From the NCBI GenBank assembly GCA_903944085.1, contig CAJAQO010000049.1, forward strand, positions 1 through 42,976: DNA of 42,976 nt, read 5' to 3'. The position numbers were made by a program, and so were the translations under genes. Below are positions 8,788 to 15,527 of the stretch, in pieces (the stretch's first letter is position 1; each line of letters opens with the position of its first letter). Under the pieces are notes generated by a model. That model was not told the DNA's origin and ran no database searches. It worked only from the letters and a program-made list of their open reading frames with translations. The DNA is from an uncultured Verrucomicrobia subdivision 3 bacterium. Its GTDB lineage: Bacteria; Verrucomicrobiota; Verrucomicrobiia; Limisphaerales; UBA11358.

Positions 8788-9402
8788 TTACTGGCCCGGC
8801 GGCGGTCCGGCCGGCGGATTGTTGCCACCGTTACCACCGGGCGGCGGACCCGCCTGGTCATCGTCGGGCGGCGGGCCACCGGCGTCGTTGCCGCCCGGGC
8901 CATCCTGCGGCGGCGGACCGGGCCGCTTGCCGAGGTATTCATCGCGCGTCAACTGCCCGTCGCCATTTTTGTCGAGCGATTTCAGCGCGGCGGGCGCGTT
9001 GGCGATTTCGCTGGCGTCAATCACGCCGTCGCCGTTCGCATCGAGCGCTTTGATGATCAACGGCAGCGGCGGGCGTTTCGCGTCCGCCGGTGCGTCCGGC
9101 GGCAGCGGCGGCAGGTATTCATCGGCCGTCAATTTGCCGTCGCCATTTTTGTCCAGTGTCAGCAACTGCGCGCTGGCGTTGGCAATTTCATTGGAATCAA
9201 TAATGCCGTCGTGATTGACGTCCAGCACCGAAACAATCGGCAAGGGCGGGTGACGATGGTGTCCGCCGGGGCCGCCCCGGCCACCGGGACCGCCGGGACT
9301 GCCGCCGCCGGGCGGGCCGTCGTTGTTGTCTTGGGCGCTGGCGAGCAGCGCGGTAGTGCCCAGCGCAACGAGCGCCAGAAGGATTGCATTTTTCATTTTC
9401 AT
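8788..9402 (-). CDS. Secreted EF-hand calcium-binding protein, Pro/Gly-rich
   Basis: A 204-residue exported protein. The ATG at 9402 ([24 protein letters not shown]) has GAAAGG about 6 nt upstream and gives a clean signal peptide. Four EF-hand loops follow in two pairs: [36 protein letters not shown] and [12 protein letters not shown]. All keep the D-x-N-x-D-G and final Glu ligands for Ca2+. A Gly/Pro-rich stretch ([12 protein letters not shown]) precedes them and another ends the protein. It has its own promoter with the same regulatory box found before the YHYH and regulator genes. The role in the locus is unknown; calcium or another divalent ion is the likely ligand. Confidence 0.85.
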
Positions 9403-9509
9403 AATTTGCCTTTCGTGTTGTTTGTTTGTGGGTGTAAATTTTTTAACGATCAGTTCCGTGATTTCATTTTTTATTTGCTGTCCGGTGATGCGATCGTTTA
9501 CATGGCGCA

Positions 9510-9543
9510 AATCTACCGCAAGCAACCTTAAGTGAATATTAAG
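9510..9543 (-). promoter_or_regulatory. PmrA-like box and -10 for the EF-hand gene
   Basis: Read on the minus strand: CTTAAT-ATTCA-CTTAAG (9543 to 9527), 11 bp, then TAGATT (9515 to 9510). The downstream half-site takes the place of the -35. The half-sites, 11-bp gap and TAGAWT element recur at the YHYH promoter. A leader of about 100 nt would precede the ATG at 9402. Confidence 0.7.
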
Positions 9544-9561: not shown

Positions 9562-11394
9562 TTATTTTTCAGCCGGAATGGTGGCGCTTGTCGGAATATA
9601 TTGCGCGTCCGTCAGCGTTTTCAAAAAAGCCACCAGCGCGCGCTTGTCCGCTGCCATCAACGGCACGCCGCCATCGGGATGCTTGGCCAGATTCGGATCG
9701 AGCGTCGCGCTGCGGACCACTCCTGTCGAGTAATGCTCGATCACCTCTGCCAAAGTGCGAAAACGTCCGTCGTGCATGTAAGGCGCGGTCAGCGCGATAT
9801 TGCGCAGCGACGGCACCGCAAACTTGCCGCGATCCGACGCCTTGCCGGTGACCTGCTCACGGCCGAGGTCTTTGAACGCGCCGTCCGAACCGTTGTTCGC
9901 GAAGCTCTGGCTCTGGAACAGCGGCCCGCCGTGGCAGTGAAAACAATCCGCGCCAAACTGTCCGCGCCGCGGATCGTATTCGGTGGAAAATAATTCAAAG
10001 CCGCGCTGCTCGTCTGGCGTGAATTTTTCCTCGCCGCGCAAAACCCGGTCGAACTTGGCGTTGAACGACGTGAGCGTGAGCAGATAATTTTCCAGCGCGA
10101 GCGAAATTTTTTCCGCCGTGATTTCCGGCGAGCCGAACGCGGCGGCAAACAGGCTGGTGTAATCCATTTCCGCTTTCCGCTTTGCGCTTTCCGCTTTTTC
10201 AGATTTCAGTTTCGCCACCAGATTCGTCAGCGACTGGTGCATCTCGATGGGATTCTGAATCGGCAGCAACACCTGCGCGCGCAAGCTTTTCGCTCGGCCG
10301 TCCCAGAAAAATTCCTTTTTCCACGCGAGATTGAACAGCGGCATGGAATTGCGCGGGCCAAATTCGCCTTCCGCACCGCGCGCCGTCCGGCGGTTATCCG
10401 CAAATGCTTTTTCCGGCAGATGACAATCGGCGCACGACTGCGCGTCGTTGATGGAAATGCGCTTGTCAAAAAAAAGCGTTTTGCCGAGTTCAACGCGTTC
10501 GACGGTGAGCGGATTATCGCGCGGCAAATCGGGAATTGGAAACGTTTCGCTCATCTGGAACGGATACGGCGTGAATTTTTCCGGCAGATAAAGCGGCTTC
10601 GGGTGCGCCACGGCAATTTCCGCGTCGGTCAGCGAGGTGATTTTGTGAACGCGAAACGCGCCCGCGAGATTCACGACCAGCGCGGCGGAAATCGGATCGC
10701 CATCCCGCGAGTGCGTCGAGGATCCGTCTTTGCCGAAAGCAAGCGGGCGCGGCGCGTTCAGCAATGTCGCCAGGTCAAAATCCAGTTCCAGCTTGGTTTC
10801 GTTGGTGATGGTGAGCGGCGCGGCGAGCGTGATGCGTGTGGCGTTCGTGTCGCGGGCGAGATGATAAGCCCAGCCGTCGAGTTGCCCGGCGGCGTTGCGC
10901 CACAAGCCTTCGAGCGCGAGAAAAATAAATCCGCCCTGCCAGCTCCAGTGCAAGCCGTTGAGATTGGGATTGAGCGGATGGCTGGCGGGAAACTGGGCGA
11001 TATCCGCGTGGTTTAGATTGGTGTTCAAGCCGACGAGAAAACGCACGGAACAAAATTCGTTCGCCGGAATTTTATCGAGCCAGATGGAATTCCGGTTCTG
11101 GTCGAAATCGAGCCACGCGACGGCGTTGGAAATTTCCAGCCACGAGCCGTCGCTGCGTTGCAACGCGAAATCGCTGACGAGATAGCTCACGCGCGTGATG
11201 GAAAATGTTTCGCCGGCCGAAGTTTGGTAGCGCAGCGAAGCCGGCTGGAGATTTTCACCGGAAACTTTCGGTGTGATTTTAATTTGCAGCGTGGCACCAA
11301 AGACCAAATTCCAATGTCCGGAAAAAATCCAAAGTCCAAGCATCAACGGTCGTGACAGGCTGCGAGGCTTGATTTGTTTAACTTGAAAGTTCAC
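9562..11394 (-). CDS. MbnP-like domain fused to MbnH/MauG-like di-heme peroxidase
   Basis: A 610-residue exported fusion. Residues about 35-250 match the MbnP-type copper-binding family: LRYQTSAGETFSITRVSYLVS, then HPLNPNLNGLHWSWQGGFIF and LEG. Residues about 285-605 are a bacterial cytochrome c peroxidase/MauG-type domain with two c-heme sites, CADCH (321-325) and CFHCH (484-488), and the APYMHDGRFRTLAEVIEHY segment. In known systems MbnH oxidises a Trp of its separate partner MbnP to kynurenine, which creates a copper site; here both parts are one chain (the function is inference). The GTG at 11394 is the likely start, giving a Lys/Arg n-region before the hydrophobic LMLGLWIFSG core, but no clear ribosome site is seen. 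It lies 33 bp after the YHYH gene and is probably co-transcribed with it. It contains two heptamer arrays. Confidence 0.85.
   Translation of the reverse strand: MNFQVKQIKPRSLSRPLMLGLWIFSGHWNLVFGATLQIKITPKVSGENLQPASLRYQTSAGETFSITRVSYLVSDFALQRSDGSWLEISNAVAWLDFDQNRNSIWLDKIPANEFCSVRFLVGLNTNLNHADIAQFPASHPLNPNLNGLHWSWQGGFIFLALEGLWRNAAGQLDGWAYHLARDTNATRITLAAPLTITNETKLELDFDLATLLNAPRPLAFGKDGSSTHSRDGDPISAALVVNLAGAFRVHKITSLTDAEIAVAHPKPLYLPEKFTPYPFQMSETFPIPDLPRDNPLTVERVELGKTLFFDKRISINDAQSCADCHLPEKAFADNRRTARGAEGEFGPRNSMPLFNLAWKKEFFWDGRAKSLRAQVLLPIQNPIEMHQSLTNLVAKLKSEKAESAKRKAEMDYTSLFAAAFGSPEITAEKISLALENYLLTLTSFNAKFDRVLRGEEKFTPDEQRGFELFSTEYDPRRGQFGADCFHCHGGPLFQSQSFANNGSDGAFKDLGREQVTGKASDRGKFAVPSLRNIALTAPYMHDGRFRTLAEVIEHYSTGVVRSATLDPNLAKHPDGGVPLMAADKRALVAFLKTLTDAQYIPTSATIPAEK
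10171..10198. repeat. Four 7-bp repeats (CGCTTTC) inside the MbnP-MbnH gene
   Basis: CGCTTTC, CGCTTTG, CGCTTTC and CGCTTTT follow each other without gaps at 10171, 10178, 10185 and 10192. On the coding strand they give the charged stretch KSEKAESAKRKAE. In related peroxidases this loop before the 'Y..LFAAAFG' motif is normally shorter (family knowledge), so it looks like an in-frame insertion. Confidence 0.7.
11297..11342. repeat. CCAAANT heptamer array at the signal peptide of the MbnP-MbnH gene
   Basis: CCAAAGA, CCAAATT and CCAATGT are contiguous 7-mers at 11297-11317. After an 11-bp interruption come CCAAAGT and CCAAGCA (11329-11342). On the minus strand they encode the hydrophobic run LGLWIFSGHWNLVFG, the core of the signal peptide. 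Confidence 0.6.
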
Positions 11395-11427: not shown

Positions 11428-13212
11428 TCACGGGTTGATCGTGAAGGCGCTGCTGAAAGTGTAGGGCGGCGGACCGGAGGTGAATGTCACCACGACGTTT
11501 TGGGTTCCGAGTGCGTTGGTGGTGGCAATATGGAAATTCGCGAGCACAGTTCCTTGGACCGCGTAAGATGAACTCGTGGCCGTCGTCGCTCCGAGCGTGA
11601 CGCTGGTGATCGGCGCGTTGGCTGGCGGCGACGGCGGGGTGCCGGGCAGCGTGATGCTCAAGGTGATGTTTGTGCCCGAACCGCGACTGACCACGCCGCT
11701 GCCCGGCACCGCATACGTTGCCGCGCCGCCGCCCGTGCCGCCGCCCGAACTGACGGCGTCATAATTTGCGAGCGCCGTTCGCGCGACCCGGTAGAAATTA
11801 TAATTGTCGGCGGCATTGCTGGTATAGCTCGCCGAATTTAAAATGGCGGCAGCGTTGGTTGATTGGGTTGTCCAGGTTGAAAAATTCGTCGTGGATTGCA
11901 CGGTGTAGGTGCCGCCTTCGGTGGCGCTCCAAGTCAAAGTGACCGTGCCGTTTTTCACCGCGGGCGCACTAAGCAAGGGACGGGCGCTTGGCCCGCCGAG
12001 AAAATTCGTCACCACGTTTTCCGAAATGCTCGTGATCGCACCACCGGTCACGCTGCCGTAGTAACCGCGTCCGATGTTGTAAGGAAACACGGGCGTGCCG
12101 TCGCTGGCGATGGCGACGAAATAAGCATAAGTCCCGCCCGGAAATTCCGGCGTGACACACCACCGGCCATTGTATTCATCGAGGTCATAAGTATTCGTGC
12201 CGGGCGCAATGCCATGGTCGCCGAGATAATCGTTGTCTTCCATATAGCGTCCCAGCGGATAGCTCGTGCTGACGGCTGGGCCGGTGACAATGTTGGATGC
12301 GACTCCGAACAGGCGAACGGCCCATTGCGGAATCGTCGAACGTCCGTTGGCCGTGAGATTGCTTGTGCCGTATGCGCCGTTGCGGAGCACATAGCCGGAA
12401 ATCATCCGGCGGATGCCGCTGCTGGCATCGTTGGAAATGCTGTAACCATAAGGCCCGTAAATCGGAAAGCCATCCGCCACCCAGCCGAGAATCGGCGAAT
12501 GTTTCGTCGGCGCGTTGGTGGATTCGGTAAACGTCTTCGTATTTGCATTGTAATCCACATGATCGCCGATCAGATAACGCAGCGCCGGCGGATTCGCGTG
12601 GTAATGATAAGTGCCGGTATTCTGTTGGTGCGCGTTGCCCGCGTCAAACGTCGGGCCTTCGTTCACATACGCGTCGCGGTTCCAATAATAAGTGGTGTTC
12701 CCGGCGCTGACTTCCGCCGAGCCGTTCCACGCAAACGCGTCCCAACTGTTGAACATCTCCACGCCGTCCACGAAGATGCCGATCTGTCCGCCGCCGCTGA
12801 TGGTTTTCGTGGCCGGCACGCTGTTCGTGCGCGGCAGGCGGTAAAGAACTTTCTGGTTCACCGGCAGGTTCGGAAACGAGCCGTTCTGCCACGGACCCAT
12901 CGTGTAGCCTGCCAGCCCGGTGCTGCGCACATAGACCGAGTTTGCCGAGGAATACACTTCCTGCACGCCGCAATACGCCGGCGCCGACTGGGTTTGTGTG
13001 CCATTGCTCCAGGTCGTCAGCGCCGTGCCGGCGCTTTTCATCGCGTTATTGGTGTAGATGCGCGCGTATTGGCCGGAATAAGCAGTGAACCAGCCGTTCG
13101 TGCGCGGATCGGCGGCTCGCGTTGAAATGGCGAAGAGGAAAACCATTCCCGCCAGCCGCCGGAGGCAATGGAGCCGGTTGTTTTTGCTGCGAACCTGGAT
13201 TTGTGTTTTCAT
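11428..13212 (-). CDS. Secreted YHYH-domain protein
   Basis: A 594-residue exported protein of unknown biochemical role. The n-region (KNNRLHCLRRLAG) and MVFLFAISTRA core form a signal peptide ending near residue 33. The name-giving Tyr-His-Tyr-His is at residues 202-205 in GTYHYHANPP, followed by LGWVADGFPIYGPYGY and the DEYNGRWCVTPEFPGGTYAYF block of the same family (PF14240). The His/Tyr-rich motif suggests metal binding, which is unproven. Residues about 420-500 carry the 'GGTYTVQSTTNFSTW...YNFYRVAR' domain also present at the end of the amylase. The predicted promoter puts the transcript start almost on the ATG at 13212, so the mRNA may be leaderless, or translation may begin at Met23. 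It is first gene of a likely two-gene operon. Confidence 0.85.
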   Translation of the reverse strand: MKTQIQVRSKNNRLHCLRRLAGMVFLFAISTRAADPRTNGWFTAYSGQYARIYTNNAMKSAGTALTTWSNGTQTQSAPAYCGVQEVYSSANSVYVRSTGLAGYTMGPWQNGSFPNLPVNQKVLYRLPRTNSVPATKTISGGGQIGIFVDGVEMFNSWDAFAWNGSAEVSAGNTTYYWNRDAYVNEGPTFDAGNAHQQNTGTYHYHANPPALRYLIGDHVDYNANTKTFTESTNAPTKHSPILGWVADGFPIYGPYGYSISNDASSGIRRMISGYVLRNGAYGTSNLTANGRSTIPQWAVRLFGVASNIVTGPAVSTSYPLGRYMEDNDYLGDHGIAPGTNTYDLDEYNGRWCVTPEFPGGTYAYFVAIASDGTPVFPYNIGRGYYGSVTGGAITSISENVVTNFLGGPSARPLLSAPAVKNGTVTLTWSATEGGTYTVQSTTNFSTWTTQSTNAAAILNSASYTSNAADNYNFYRVARTALANYDAVSSGGGTGGGAATYAVPGSGVVSRGSGTNITLSITLPGTPPSPPANAPITSVTLGATTATSSSYAVQGTVLANFHIATTNALGTQNVVVTFTSGPPPYTFSSAFTINP

Positions 13213-13374: not shown

Positions 13375-14025
13375 ATGAGAATTCTCGTTGTCGAAGACGA
13401 ACCAGATTTACTCGCGAGCCTTGCCCAGGCTCTGCGCGAGGAAGGCTACGCCGTGGACACCGCCGACAACGGCGACGACGGTTTCTTCAATGCCGAAGGC
13501 ACCGATTACGACGCCATCGTGCTCGACGTGATGCTGCCCGGCTTGGACGGCTGGGAAATTCTTAAGCGCCTCCGCAAAACCAAAAAAACACCCGTGCTGA
13601 TGCTCACCGCGCGCGACCAGACGCGGGATCGCGTTAAAGGCCTCGACACCGGCGCGGATGATTACGTCGTCAAACCGTTTGATCTCGAAGAAGTGTTCGC
13701 CCGCCTCCGCGCCATCATTCGTCGCAGCGCCAATAAGACGACGAACATTTTTGAAATTGGCGAGGTGAAAATTGACACCGCCGCGCGCCAGGTTTTCTTC
13801 AAAAACAAAATGGTTGAAATCACCGCCCGCGAATATGCGCTGTTGGAATTTCTCGCGCTGCATCGTGGCGAAGTCGTCACCCGCACGCAGCTTTACGAAC
13901 ATCTTTTTGACGAGAACGAAAGCTCGCTGTCCAACCTGCTCGACGTCCACGTTTCCAATGTCCGCAAAAAGCTCGGCGCGGAATTTATCGCCACGCGGCG
14001 CGGCCACGGCTATTGCATCGAATGA
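13375..14025 (+). CDS. OmpR-family response regulator (PmrA/QseB/CusR-like)
   Basis: A 216-residue transcription factor. The receiver spans 1-115 with acidic residues Asp8/Glu9, phospho-acceptor Asp51 in IVLDVMLPG, the LTAR switch Thr78 and Lys100 in YVVKPFD. The winged-helix DNA-binding domain is at about 125-216 and ends in LDVHVSNVRKKLGAEFIATRRGHGYCIE. Its stop overlaps the kinase start by 4 bp. OmpR-family proteins of this branch bind direct repeats with one half-site per helical turn, and such repeats stand before this gene, the YHYH operon and the EF-hand gene. Those are therefore its likely targets (inference). Confidence 0.93.
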   Translation: MRILVVEDEPDLLASLAQALREEGYAVDTADNGDDGFFNAEGTDYDAIVLDVMLPGLDGWEILKRLRKTKKTPVLMLTARDQTRDRVKGLDTGADDYVVKPFDLEEVFARLRAIIRRSANKTTNIFEIGEVKIDTAARQVFFKNKMVEITAREYALLEFLALHRGEVVTRTQLYEHLFDENESSLSNLLDVHVSNVRKKLGAEFIATRRGHGYCIE

Positions 14026-15527
14026 AGATGTTTAAATCCATCAAATGGCGTTTGCAACTCTGGTATGGGCTGATTCTGGTTGCCGTTTTGGCGGGCTTTG
14101 GCGTCACGGCCTATCAGCTTGAACGGAACCGGCAGTTTGGTCGCATTGACCAAGAATTACATCGCCGGATCGGCATGCTGGCCAATGCGCTGCATCGTCC
14201 GCCGCCGCGCCGGCCGGAGCAGGAATTTTTTCGGCCACCGCGGGATCAGATGCGGGACGATGGGCCGCCCATGGTGCCGGGAAATCGTCCGCTGCTGGAA
14301 TTTCGTCTGCCGGCGGAGAACGCCCAGCTTTTTGGCACCAACGATCCCAACGGTTTTTATTTCCGGATTATCCAAGTCATTGAACATGGCCGGCAGGAAA
14401 TTGCCCGCTCGGACAACTATCACGATTTGGCGGAGCCGGCGGCGGCTGTTCAATTCGATCATTTTTTTGACCGGCAGAATCACGTTGATTCGGGTCCGGA
14501 CAATCCGCCGGCCAAACTGAAGACGATGGATTATCACGCTGAACGCATCACCGCAGACTTTCTGCCGTCCGGCGAATTTATTGAAGTCGGCTGCTCCGTC
14601 ACTCCCGAACTGAAGGAACTTCAGCACACCGCTTTGAACCTCACGCTCATTGGCGGATTGATTTTGCTCGTCGGCCTCGCGGGCGGCTGGTGGTTGGTCG
14701 GGCACGCTCTGCGGCCGATATCCGAAATCAGCGCGACGGCGGTGAAAATTTCCGCCGGCGATCTGGCGCAGCGCATCAACGTCGCCGAGGCGGAAAGCGA
14801 ACTCGGCCAGCTTGCGGCGGTTTTGAACTCCACTTTCGCGCGGCTGGAAACGGCCTTCGCACAGCAGAAACAATTTGCCGCCGACGCGGCGCACGAATTG
14901 CGAACGCCGGTTTCCGTGATGCTCACGCAAACGCAGACCGCGCTCAACCGCGAGCGCGATGCCGCCAGCTACAAGCTGACCGTCGAGGCCTGTCAGCGCG
15001 CGGCGCAGCGGATGCGCAAGCTGATCGAGTCGCTGCTGGCGCTCGCGCGATTTGACGCCGGACAGGAAATTTTAAACCGGCAACGCTTTGATTTTTCCAA
15101 AACGATTGGTGACAGCGTCAACCTGGTGCAGCCGCTGGCGGACGAACGCGGCGTGAAAGTTTCCGTCGCGGCGGAACCGCTCGAAATCACCGGCGATTCC
15201 GAACGGCTGGCGCAAGTCGTCACCAACCTGCTGACGAATGCAATTCAATACAACCGTCCCGGCGGCGAAGTGCGCGTGAAACTGGAATCGCAAAACGGCC
15301 TCGCCGTGCTGGCCGTTGCCGACACCGGGCTGGGCATCGCGGCGGAAGATTTGCCGCGCGTGTTCGGACGATTTTTCCGCGCCGACCAGTCGCGCACCGG
15401 CGCCGGCAATGCCGGGCTTGGCCTCGCGATTTCCAAGGCCATTATCGAAGCTCACGGTGGCGCGATTGAGGTGGCCAGCGAAATGAATTCCGGGACGACG
15501 TTTACGGTCCGACTCCCGAAAGATTGA
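14022..15527 (+). CDS. Sensor histidine kinase, CusS/QseC-like
   Basis: A 501-residue membrane kinase. The ATG at 14022 overlaps the regulator's TGA (ATGA), which beats the upstream TTG at 14013. TM1 is about residues 10-28 and TM2 about 203-226. Between them is a roughly 175-residue periplasmic sensor rich in Pro, Arg and His (PPPRRPEQEFFRPPRDQMRD, FDHFFDRQNHVD, MDYH). HAMP follows (LRPISEISATAVKISAGDLAQRI), then the H-box DAAHELRTP with His291, the N-box NLLTNAIQYN, and ATP-binding DTGLGIA and NAGLGLAI. The gene pair sits next to the MbnP-MbnH/YHYH operon. The ligand is unknown; a metal ion is a reasonable guess from context. Confidence 0.92.
   Translation: MKMFKSIKWRLQLWYGLILVAVLAGFGVTAYQLERNRQFGRIDQELHRRIGMLANALHRPPPRRPEQEFFRPPRDQMRDDGPPMVPGNRPLLEFRLPAENAQLFGTNDPNGFYFRIIQVIEHGRQEIARSDNYHDLAEPAAAVQFDHFFDRQNHVDSGPDNPPAKLKTMDYHAERITADFLPSGEFIEVGCSVTPELKELQHTALNLTLIGGLILLVGLAGGWWLVGHALRPISEISATAVKISAGDLAQRINVAEAESELGQLAAVLNSTFARLETAFAQQKQFAADAAHELRTPVSVMLTQTQTALNRERDAASYKLTVEACQRAAQRMRKLIESLLALARFDAGQEILNRQRFDFSKTIGDSVNLVQPLADERGVKVSVAAEPLEITGDSERLAQVVTNLLTNAIQYNRPGGEVRVKLESQNGLAVLAVADTGLGIAAEDLPRVFGRFFRADQSRTGAGNAGLGLAISKAIIEAHGGAIEVASEMNSGTTFTVRLPKD

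Follow-up and report, generated by a model that had tools for sequence, protein, structure and literature searches.

A conserved MbnP–MbnH-like fusion protein in Verrucomicrobiota and its possible role as a self-maturing copper protein

The window analysed here, a 42,976-nucleotide stretch of DNA from an uncultured Verrucomicrobia subdivision 3 bacterium, encodes a real and conserved fusion of an MbnP-like domain with an MbnH-like di-heme domain, a variant of the MbnP/MbnH pair which occurs across Verrucomicrobiota lineages. We interpret the fusion as an envelope copper protein that matures itself and has a putative kynurenine/Cu(I) site, and give this reading a probability of roughly 0.6. A first-pass annotation, made from the sequence alone, had proposed that the domains of both activities are joined in one polypeptide, and this is borne out by a single 610-residue frame, an arrangement repeated in 28 of the 29 places in the genus where MbnP occurs. 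The features of the protein are as follows.

9562..11394, minus strand: fused MbnP/MbnH-like open-reading frame (ORF), a single frame without interruption, GTG start, 610 aa
11296..11394, minus strand: probable signal peptide, residues 1–33 (sequence inspection)
10633..11292, minus strand: MbnP-like domain, residues 35–254 (Pfam match over 35–214 and structural match to 7l6g over 32–252)
10939..10947, minus strand: WxW motif, W150-S-W152 (conservation and alignment with the WNW of 7l6g)
10861..10863, minus strand: His178, candidate copper ligand (conservation)
10711..10713, minus strand: His228, candidate copper ligand (conservation)
10543..10632, minus strand: inter-domain linker, residues 255–284 (spacing between profile matches)
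9589..10542, minus strand: MbnH/MauG-like di-heme domain, residues 285–602 (profile, sequence and structure matches)
10420..10434, minus strand: heme motif 1, CADCH, residues 321–325 (conservation of Cys and His)
10303..10305, minus strand: W364, the Trp of an FWDGR motif (conservation; Trp in 6e1c too)
9931..9945, minus strand: heme motif 2, CFHCH, residues 484–488 (conservation of Cys and His)
9730..9732, minus strand: Y555, MauG/MbnH-type tyrosine at the expected distal-ligand position (conservation; Tyr in 6e1c)
9679..9681, minus strand: His572, in LDPNLAKH (conservation)

The N-half, taken for MbnP-like in the annotation on account of an HWSWQGG block (residues 149–155), matches the Pfam MbnP family (PF20243) over residues 35–214 with an E-value of 4.6e-32 (111.9 bits against a cut-off of 27), and the C-half, there called a two-heme MauG/MbnH-type enzyme, carries two CxxCH motifs and matches CCP_MauG (PF03150; E 1.2e-52, 178.9 bits against a cut-off of 25.6), so by the Pfam thresholds both are family members. 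In NCBIfam the top match of the N-half was MbnP_like_WxW (E 5.3e-9, below the curated cut-off), its score against the MbnP family copper-binding protein TIGR04052 was 35.8 bits where the cut-off is 140, and the best match of the C-half was the MbnH family di-heme enzyme TIGR04039 (E 4.8e-69, 233 bits, below the cut-off of 362.85). As both domains fall below the NCBIfam cut-offs, the fusion is best described as a variant, not a strict member of either family. An AlphaFold2 model of the whole chain (mean pLDDT 88.2, pTM 0.85) placed the predicted N-domain on the solved MbnP structure 7l6g (Z 18.3 over 206 residues) and the predicted C-domain on the solved MbnH structure 6e1c (Z 31.3 over 304 residues), the C-domain fitting MauG and bCcP structures about equally (Z about 27), so that MbnH is its best counterpart both by sequence and by fold. 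A profile of the MbnP domain found 7l6g as a weak match (E 0.0075) in which W150-x-W152 aligned with the WNW of that structure. The N-domain alone gave a single chance match (E 2) when searched against the PDB with phmmer, and a viral fold library gave no match at E 0.001. The model shows a low-confidence helix at residues 15–25, within the signal region, and inspection of the 610-residue sequence revealed no second signal peptide. The linker is of narrow length: in 57 of 74 fused ORFs the MbnP and CCP_MauG profile matches are 28–30 residues apart.

Conservation was followed in 70 fused and 56 separate MbnP domains, and for the di-heme domain in 70 fused and 80 separate rows; truncated or broken sequences (L029, L048, L124, L129 and L133) and four duplicates were left out of the 70 fused rows. 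W150, which we equate with the Trp that becomes kynurenine in MbnP, is present in all 70 fused proteins and 50 of 56 separate MbnPs, W152 in 68 of 70 and 45 of 56 (the two fused exceptions, L044 and L128, have Pro there and keep the first Trp). The candidate ligands H178 and H228 are both invariant in the fused rows and occur in 55 and 35 of the 56 separate MbnPs, respectively, and D233 is likewise found in 70 of 70 fused rows. In the di-heme domain the Cys and His of both CxxCH motifs, W358, Y539 and Y555 are each present in every fused row, as is W364 (59 of 80 separate MbnH rows), which presumably lies between the two hemes. The Y555 column, compared with 6e1c and the fused rows, holds the Tyr and not the Met at the distal position, as expected of the MauG/MbnH type, where this residue is presumably the distal heme ligand in place of the Met of a classical peroxidase. 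The annotation had named two findings that would count against it, loss of the modified Trp position and assignment of the N-domain to an unrelated family, and neither was encountered: the position is there and the profiles place the domain in MbnP. The N-domain has one Cys (C115) and lacks the four-Cys motif given in the molecule name of 7l6g, the fused MbnP domains carrying 0–3 Cys each.

Other columns of the alignment were variable between fused and separate proteins. His572 is found in all 70 fused rows and in two of 80 separate MbnH rows (L057 and L063). The His228 column is empty in 18 separate MbnPs, mostly flavobacterial (L058, L064, L065, L068, L070, L076, L077, L079, L086, L087, L092, L095, L098–L101, L104 and L109), in which Val replaces the second WxW Trp in 11 cases and Phe or Met replaces the first in six; these have another His after the loop, in GGYH or QGYH, and adjoin MbnH genes with intact motifs. 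The copper site may have moved in these 18 proteins. Several operons hold one MbnP and two MbnH-like genes (for example L059, L060, L069, L073, L082 and L085, also L096, L102 and L106–L108), with the FWDGR Trp replaced by Arg in the first MbnH, which suggests different jobs for the paired enzymes.

The genome containing the window is 95.91% complete in 335 contigs and has one MbnP match and one CCP_MauG match, both of which are the fused ORF; the only MbnP partner found for the enzyme domain is thus its own kind. No match to MbnB, of methanobactin biosynthesis, was found in this genome, which makes methanobactin unlikely in the organism and agrees with the annotation, where no methanobactin precursor was seen nearby; across the genus, no genome out of 49 had MbnB above the cut-off, with weak matches in eight. 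MbnP is present in 27 of these 49 genomes, at 29 places; 28 of these encode the two domains in a single frame, and the remaining one is interrupted by a contig end. Such recurrence in many separate assemblies excludes an assembly artefact. Every CCP_MauG match lies inside the fused frame in 16 of the 27 MbnP-bearing genomes, the other 11 encoding further MauG-type proteins, and among the 22 genus genomes without MbnP two had a CCP_MauG match, one of them below the cut-off.

The annotation had suggested searching for more fusions, and many were found, for example the 28 in the genus and 22 intact ones in a draw of 387 genomes from the phylum. MbnP occurred in 22 genomes of this draw, therefore the gene is not common in the phylum; the 24 further genes comprised the 22 intact fusions, one with a broken frame (L124, the same as L133) and one that was shortened (L129). 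In the latter, from a distant genome of the same phylum, the shortened MbnP is followed by a transposase-like ORF, with a YHYH-domain gene still upstream. In a scan of genome contigs, the best 80 of 585 loci included 25 fused and 55 non-fused, the latter made up of 53 separate MbnP and MbnH pairs and two loci with MbnH alone in the stretch examined. Among the 25 fused loci, one is truncated (L048) and two (L030 and L037) have MbnP domains identical to those of genus loci; 23 are labelled with a Verrucomicrobiota taxon and two only as 'bacterium'. The nearest of the best 80 loci, L030, shares 84% identity and comes from an uncultured Verrucomicrobia subdivision 3 bacterium. The fusion is not an isolated case; where Verrucomicrobiota genomes have MbnP, it usually takes this form. 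The 395 genomes of the Bacteroidota-side phylum to which the genome of L058 belongs (97 with an MbnP match) yielded no fusion, nor did 40 Sumerlaeota genomes, where the three with MbnP all encode it separately from MbnH; in both phyla MbnP and MbnH are two adjacent genes. A 517 aa frame (G666), the sole one above 500 aa in the Bacteroidota-side set, proved to be MbnP with an extra frame ahead of it and a separate MbnH after. Plasmid records matched in 367 cases, two of which (Deinococcus) covered at least 80% of the query, each match spanning several annotated genes.

The genes next to the fusion in the window are the following.

11428..13212, minus strand: YHYH-domain protein, directly upstream, 33-base gap (PF14240, E 5.6e-40)
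8788..9525, minus strand: EF-hand protein, directly downstream (profile match)
13375..14025, plus strand: response regulator, divergent (heavy-metal family TIGR01387, 226.3 bits, below the 279.2 cut-off)
14013..15527, plus strand: sensor kinase (heavy-metal family TIGR01386, 279.8 bits, below the 292.55 cut-off)

The YHYH gene and the fusion probably share an operon. Among loci with a flank of 1.1 kb or more, a YHYH gene precedes the fusion on the same strand in 23 of 26 from the genus, in seven of 19 from the best 80 of 585 and in three of 22 from the phylum draw (one of these weak); all three Sumerlaeota loci (L057, L142 and L143) have one as well. A YHYH protein thus accompanies MbnP/MbnH in two phyla, perhaps as a further component of the same copper system; titles and abstract openings of the YHYH papers listed (15 of 26) gave no link to copper. 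We scanned the ORF that follows the fusion at 13 of the 25 fused loci from the best 80 of 585. It was of galactose-oxidase type (kelch and GO-like E-set domains) in five (L040, L041, L043, L047 and L054), these five having been chosen partly for look-alike ORFs or a di-heme region; the other eight belonged to other families (L046, L035, L039 and L049) or had no match (L032, L050, L051 and L055). All five galactose-oxidase-like ORFs contain RNYHS and none matches the pattern used for the later His, though TH motifs are visible by eye in L041, L043, L047 and L054. The following ORFs of L041 and L043 reach about 2000 residues in the stretch examined, with lectin or PA14 domains, PKD domains and a second di-heme-like region. 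These neighbours hint at copper.

As to the origin of the fusion, the fused rows form a tight cluster in the tree. In a tree of 132 of the 150 di-heme rows the Sumerlaeota L057 fell inside the fused rows, a placement that would make the Sumerlaeota genes a fusion split again; this was set aside, as with more data a fused-only tree was equally good. A fused-only clade was not rejected with 50 rows (AU p 0.347), and with 65 rows, both domains and three Sumerlaeota pairs, the fused-only tree had a log-likelihood 0.02 higher (p 0.507). Since holding the fused rows to one clade costs nothing relative to the free tree, a single fusion event fits, without being proven. The L057 MbnH gene has a signal-like start followed by PTPFRMG...FPADNP, which resembles the end of the linker in the fusion. 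The fusion could therefore have formed when the stop of MbnP and the signal of MbnH were lost.

The mechanism we propose begins with a chain that would be exported through its N-terminal signal and then loaded with two hemes c. Its MauG/MbnH-type domain, oxidised by hydrogen peroxide or an equivalent, would pull electrons from W150 in the MbnP domain of a chain of the same kind, turning it into kynurenine, and Kynurenine-150 together with His178 and His228 would form the Cu(I) site. With enzyme and substrate tethered and equal in number, the enzyme would act about once per chain. The protein would probably serve to capture or store copper for copper enzymes of the envelope, with no need of methanobactin; in the window's genus it would do so alongside the YHYH protein and perhaps under the heavy-metal-type two-component system. 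More specifically, we suggest, tentatively and at slightly below even odds, that a single event joined an enzyme to a protein substrate which it modifies only once, and that the Verrucomicrobiota lineages carrying the fusion retained it, the kynurenine copper ligand being written by electron transfer within the chain, in cis as the annotation had suggested, and independently of methanobactin. For the self-maturing reading speak the fits to both solved structures, the invariance of W150, H178, H228 and D233 where the second Trp varies, the conserved heme motifs with W358, W364 and Y555, the single copy in the window's genome, the narrow linker, the placing of WxW in two models (below), the copper site of CorA and MopE, and the galactose-oxidase-like neighbours. 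Against it count the further MauG-type proteins in 11 of the 27 MbnP-bearing genus genomes, the scores below both NCBIfam cut-offs, the separate MbnPs that have lost the Trp or the His228 column beside an intact MbnH, and, from the CorA work, the second-sphere kynurenine and the suggestion of non-enzymatic Trp oxidation.

Maturation could also proceed between chains, in dimers or chance encounters, with the di-heme domain of one copy oxidising the W150 of another and the fusion serving to fix stoichiometry and co-export. The pairs studied so far act between two proteins, and a swapped arrangement is compatible with the narrow linker. Against this stand, indirectly, two predicted monomers in which the WxW loop already rests against the di-heme part of the same chain: in the structural comparison of the fusion model, 20 of 50 rows started at residues 149–152, and for a second model, of a 44% identical protein, 19 of 50 started at 138–140, where W138 and W140 are its WxW. 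These alignment ranges hint that WxW occupies the place on the di-heme body which, in bacterial cytochrome c peroxidases, is taken by N-terminal residues, both models being free of heme and copper and overlapping in their input (the second alignment has 25 rows, each of which also occurs in the first). We consider maturation between chains unlikely, though it deserves consideration. A further reading is that the MbnP domain binds copper or docks the protein, W150 being left alone by a di-heme domain that acts as a peroxidase or on another substrate, such as the YHYH protein. The frequent YHYH gene upstream in the genus (23 of 26 loci) and in the three Sumerlaeota operons speaks for such an activity, as does the loss of the Trp in some MbnPs beside an MbnH that is still intact; six MbnPs without the first Trp adjoin intact MbnH genes, therefore an intact MbnH alone does not prove oxidation at the W150 position. 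However, W150 is invariant in the fused proteins where W152 varies, and YHYH, near only a minority of the fused loci in the wider sets, is unlikely to be a general substrate, which leaves this second reading quite improbable. That the MbnP and MbnH domain assignments are themselves mistaken is very improbable, for although CCP_MauG is a broad family and the fit of bCcP to the C-domain equals that of MauG (Z about 27 for both), the C-domain is closest to MbnH and the N-domain is MbnP by both profile and fold, which rules out an unrelated N-domain.

The self-maturing fusion resembles several known systems. MauG, which acts on pre-methylamine dehydrogenase, is likewise a di-heme enzyme with a fold match of Z about 27, and oxidises protein Trp residues at a distance, in a two-protein arrangement whose product is TTQ, not kynurenine. 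The MbnP/MbnH pair of Methylosinus trichosporium OB3b (7l6g and 6e1c, a 'metallo-mystery pair') has the same folds, the WxW, two hemes and the distal-position Tyr; the first WxW Trp of MbnP is reportedly converted to kynurenine by MbnH. The window's protein differs from the OB3b pair in being one polypeptide, with no MbnB found in its genome, a single N-domain Cys and scores below the NCBIfam cut-offs. The Sumerlaeota YHYH-MbnP-MbnH operons (L057, L142 and L143) have the gene order of the window and their rows adjoin the fused ones in trees, however, they encode MbnP apart from MbnH, and MbnH has a signal-like N-terminus of its own. MopE/SACCP and CorA/CorB of gamma-proteobacterial methanotrophs have a Cu(I) site like the one proposed here, but are separate proteins. 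In the accessible part of PMC3912023, the copper site of CorA and MopE is described as two His with kynurenine close by and a di-heme peroxidase gene adjoining, the kynurenine of CorA, 2.9 Å from the copper, being termed a second-sphere ligand; the same part of that paper mentions a knock-out of the di-heme partner in another methanotroph, from which non-enzymatic Trp oxidation was suggested. MbnP had no marked sequence similarity to MopE or CorA according to excerpts of a 2013 paper (PMC3621798).

Among the papers listed, no MbnP–MbnH fusion appears in titles or abstract openings, a scope outside which lie Manesis 2021 and Kenney 2019, the papers likeliest to mention one. The words 'fused' and 'fusion' do not occur in the main texts of PMC3621798 and PMC6405878, and the available portions of PMC3912023, PMC12607021, PMC9601215 and PMC9426467 contain no report of a fusion.

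Studies of how MauG-type enzymes oxidise Trp over a long range have dealt with two proteins that first have to meet. A natural 1:1 fusion removes this encounter step, and would thereby allow heme-to-Trp hole transfer, and action within or between chains, to be studied in one construct, in which one could also approach the sequence of events, from the loading of hemes to the oxidation and the binding of copper. If the proposed reading is true, kynurenine-copper chemistry would extend beyond methanotrophs and methanobactin, into the Verrucomicrobiota.
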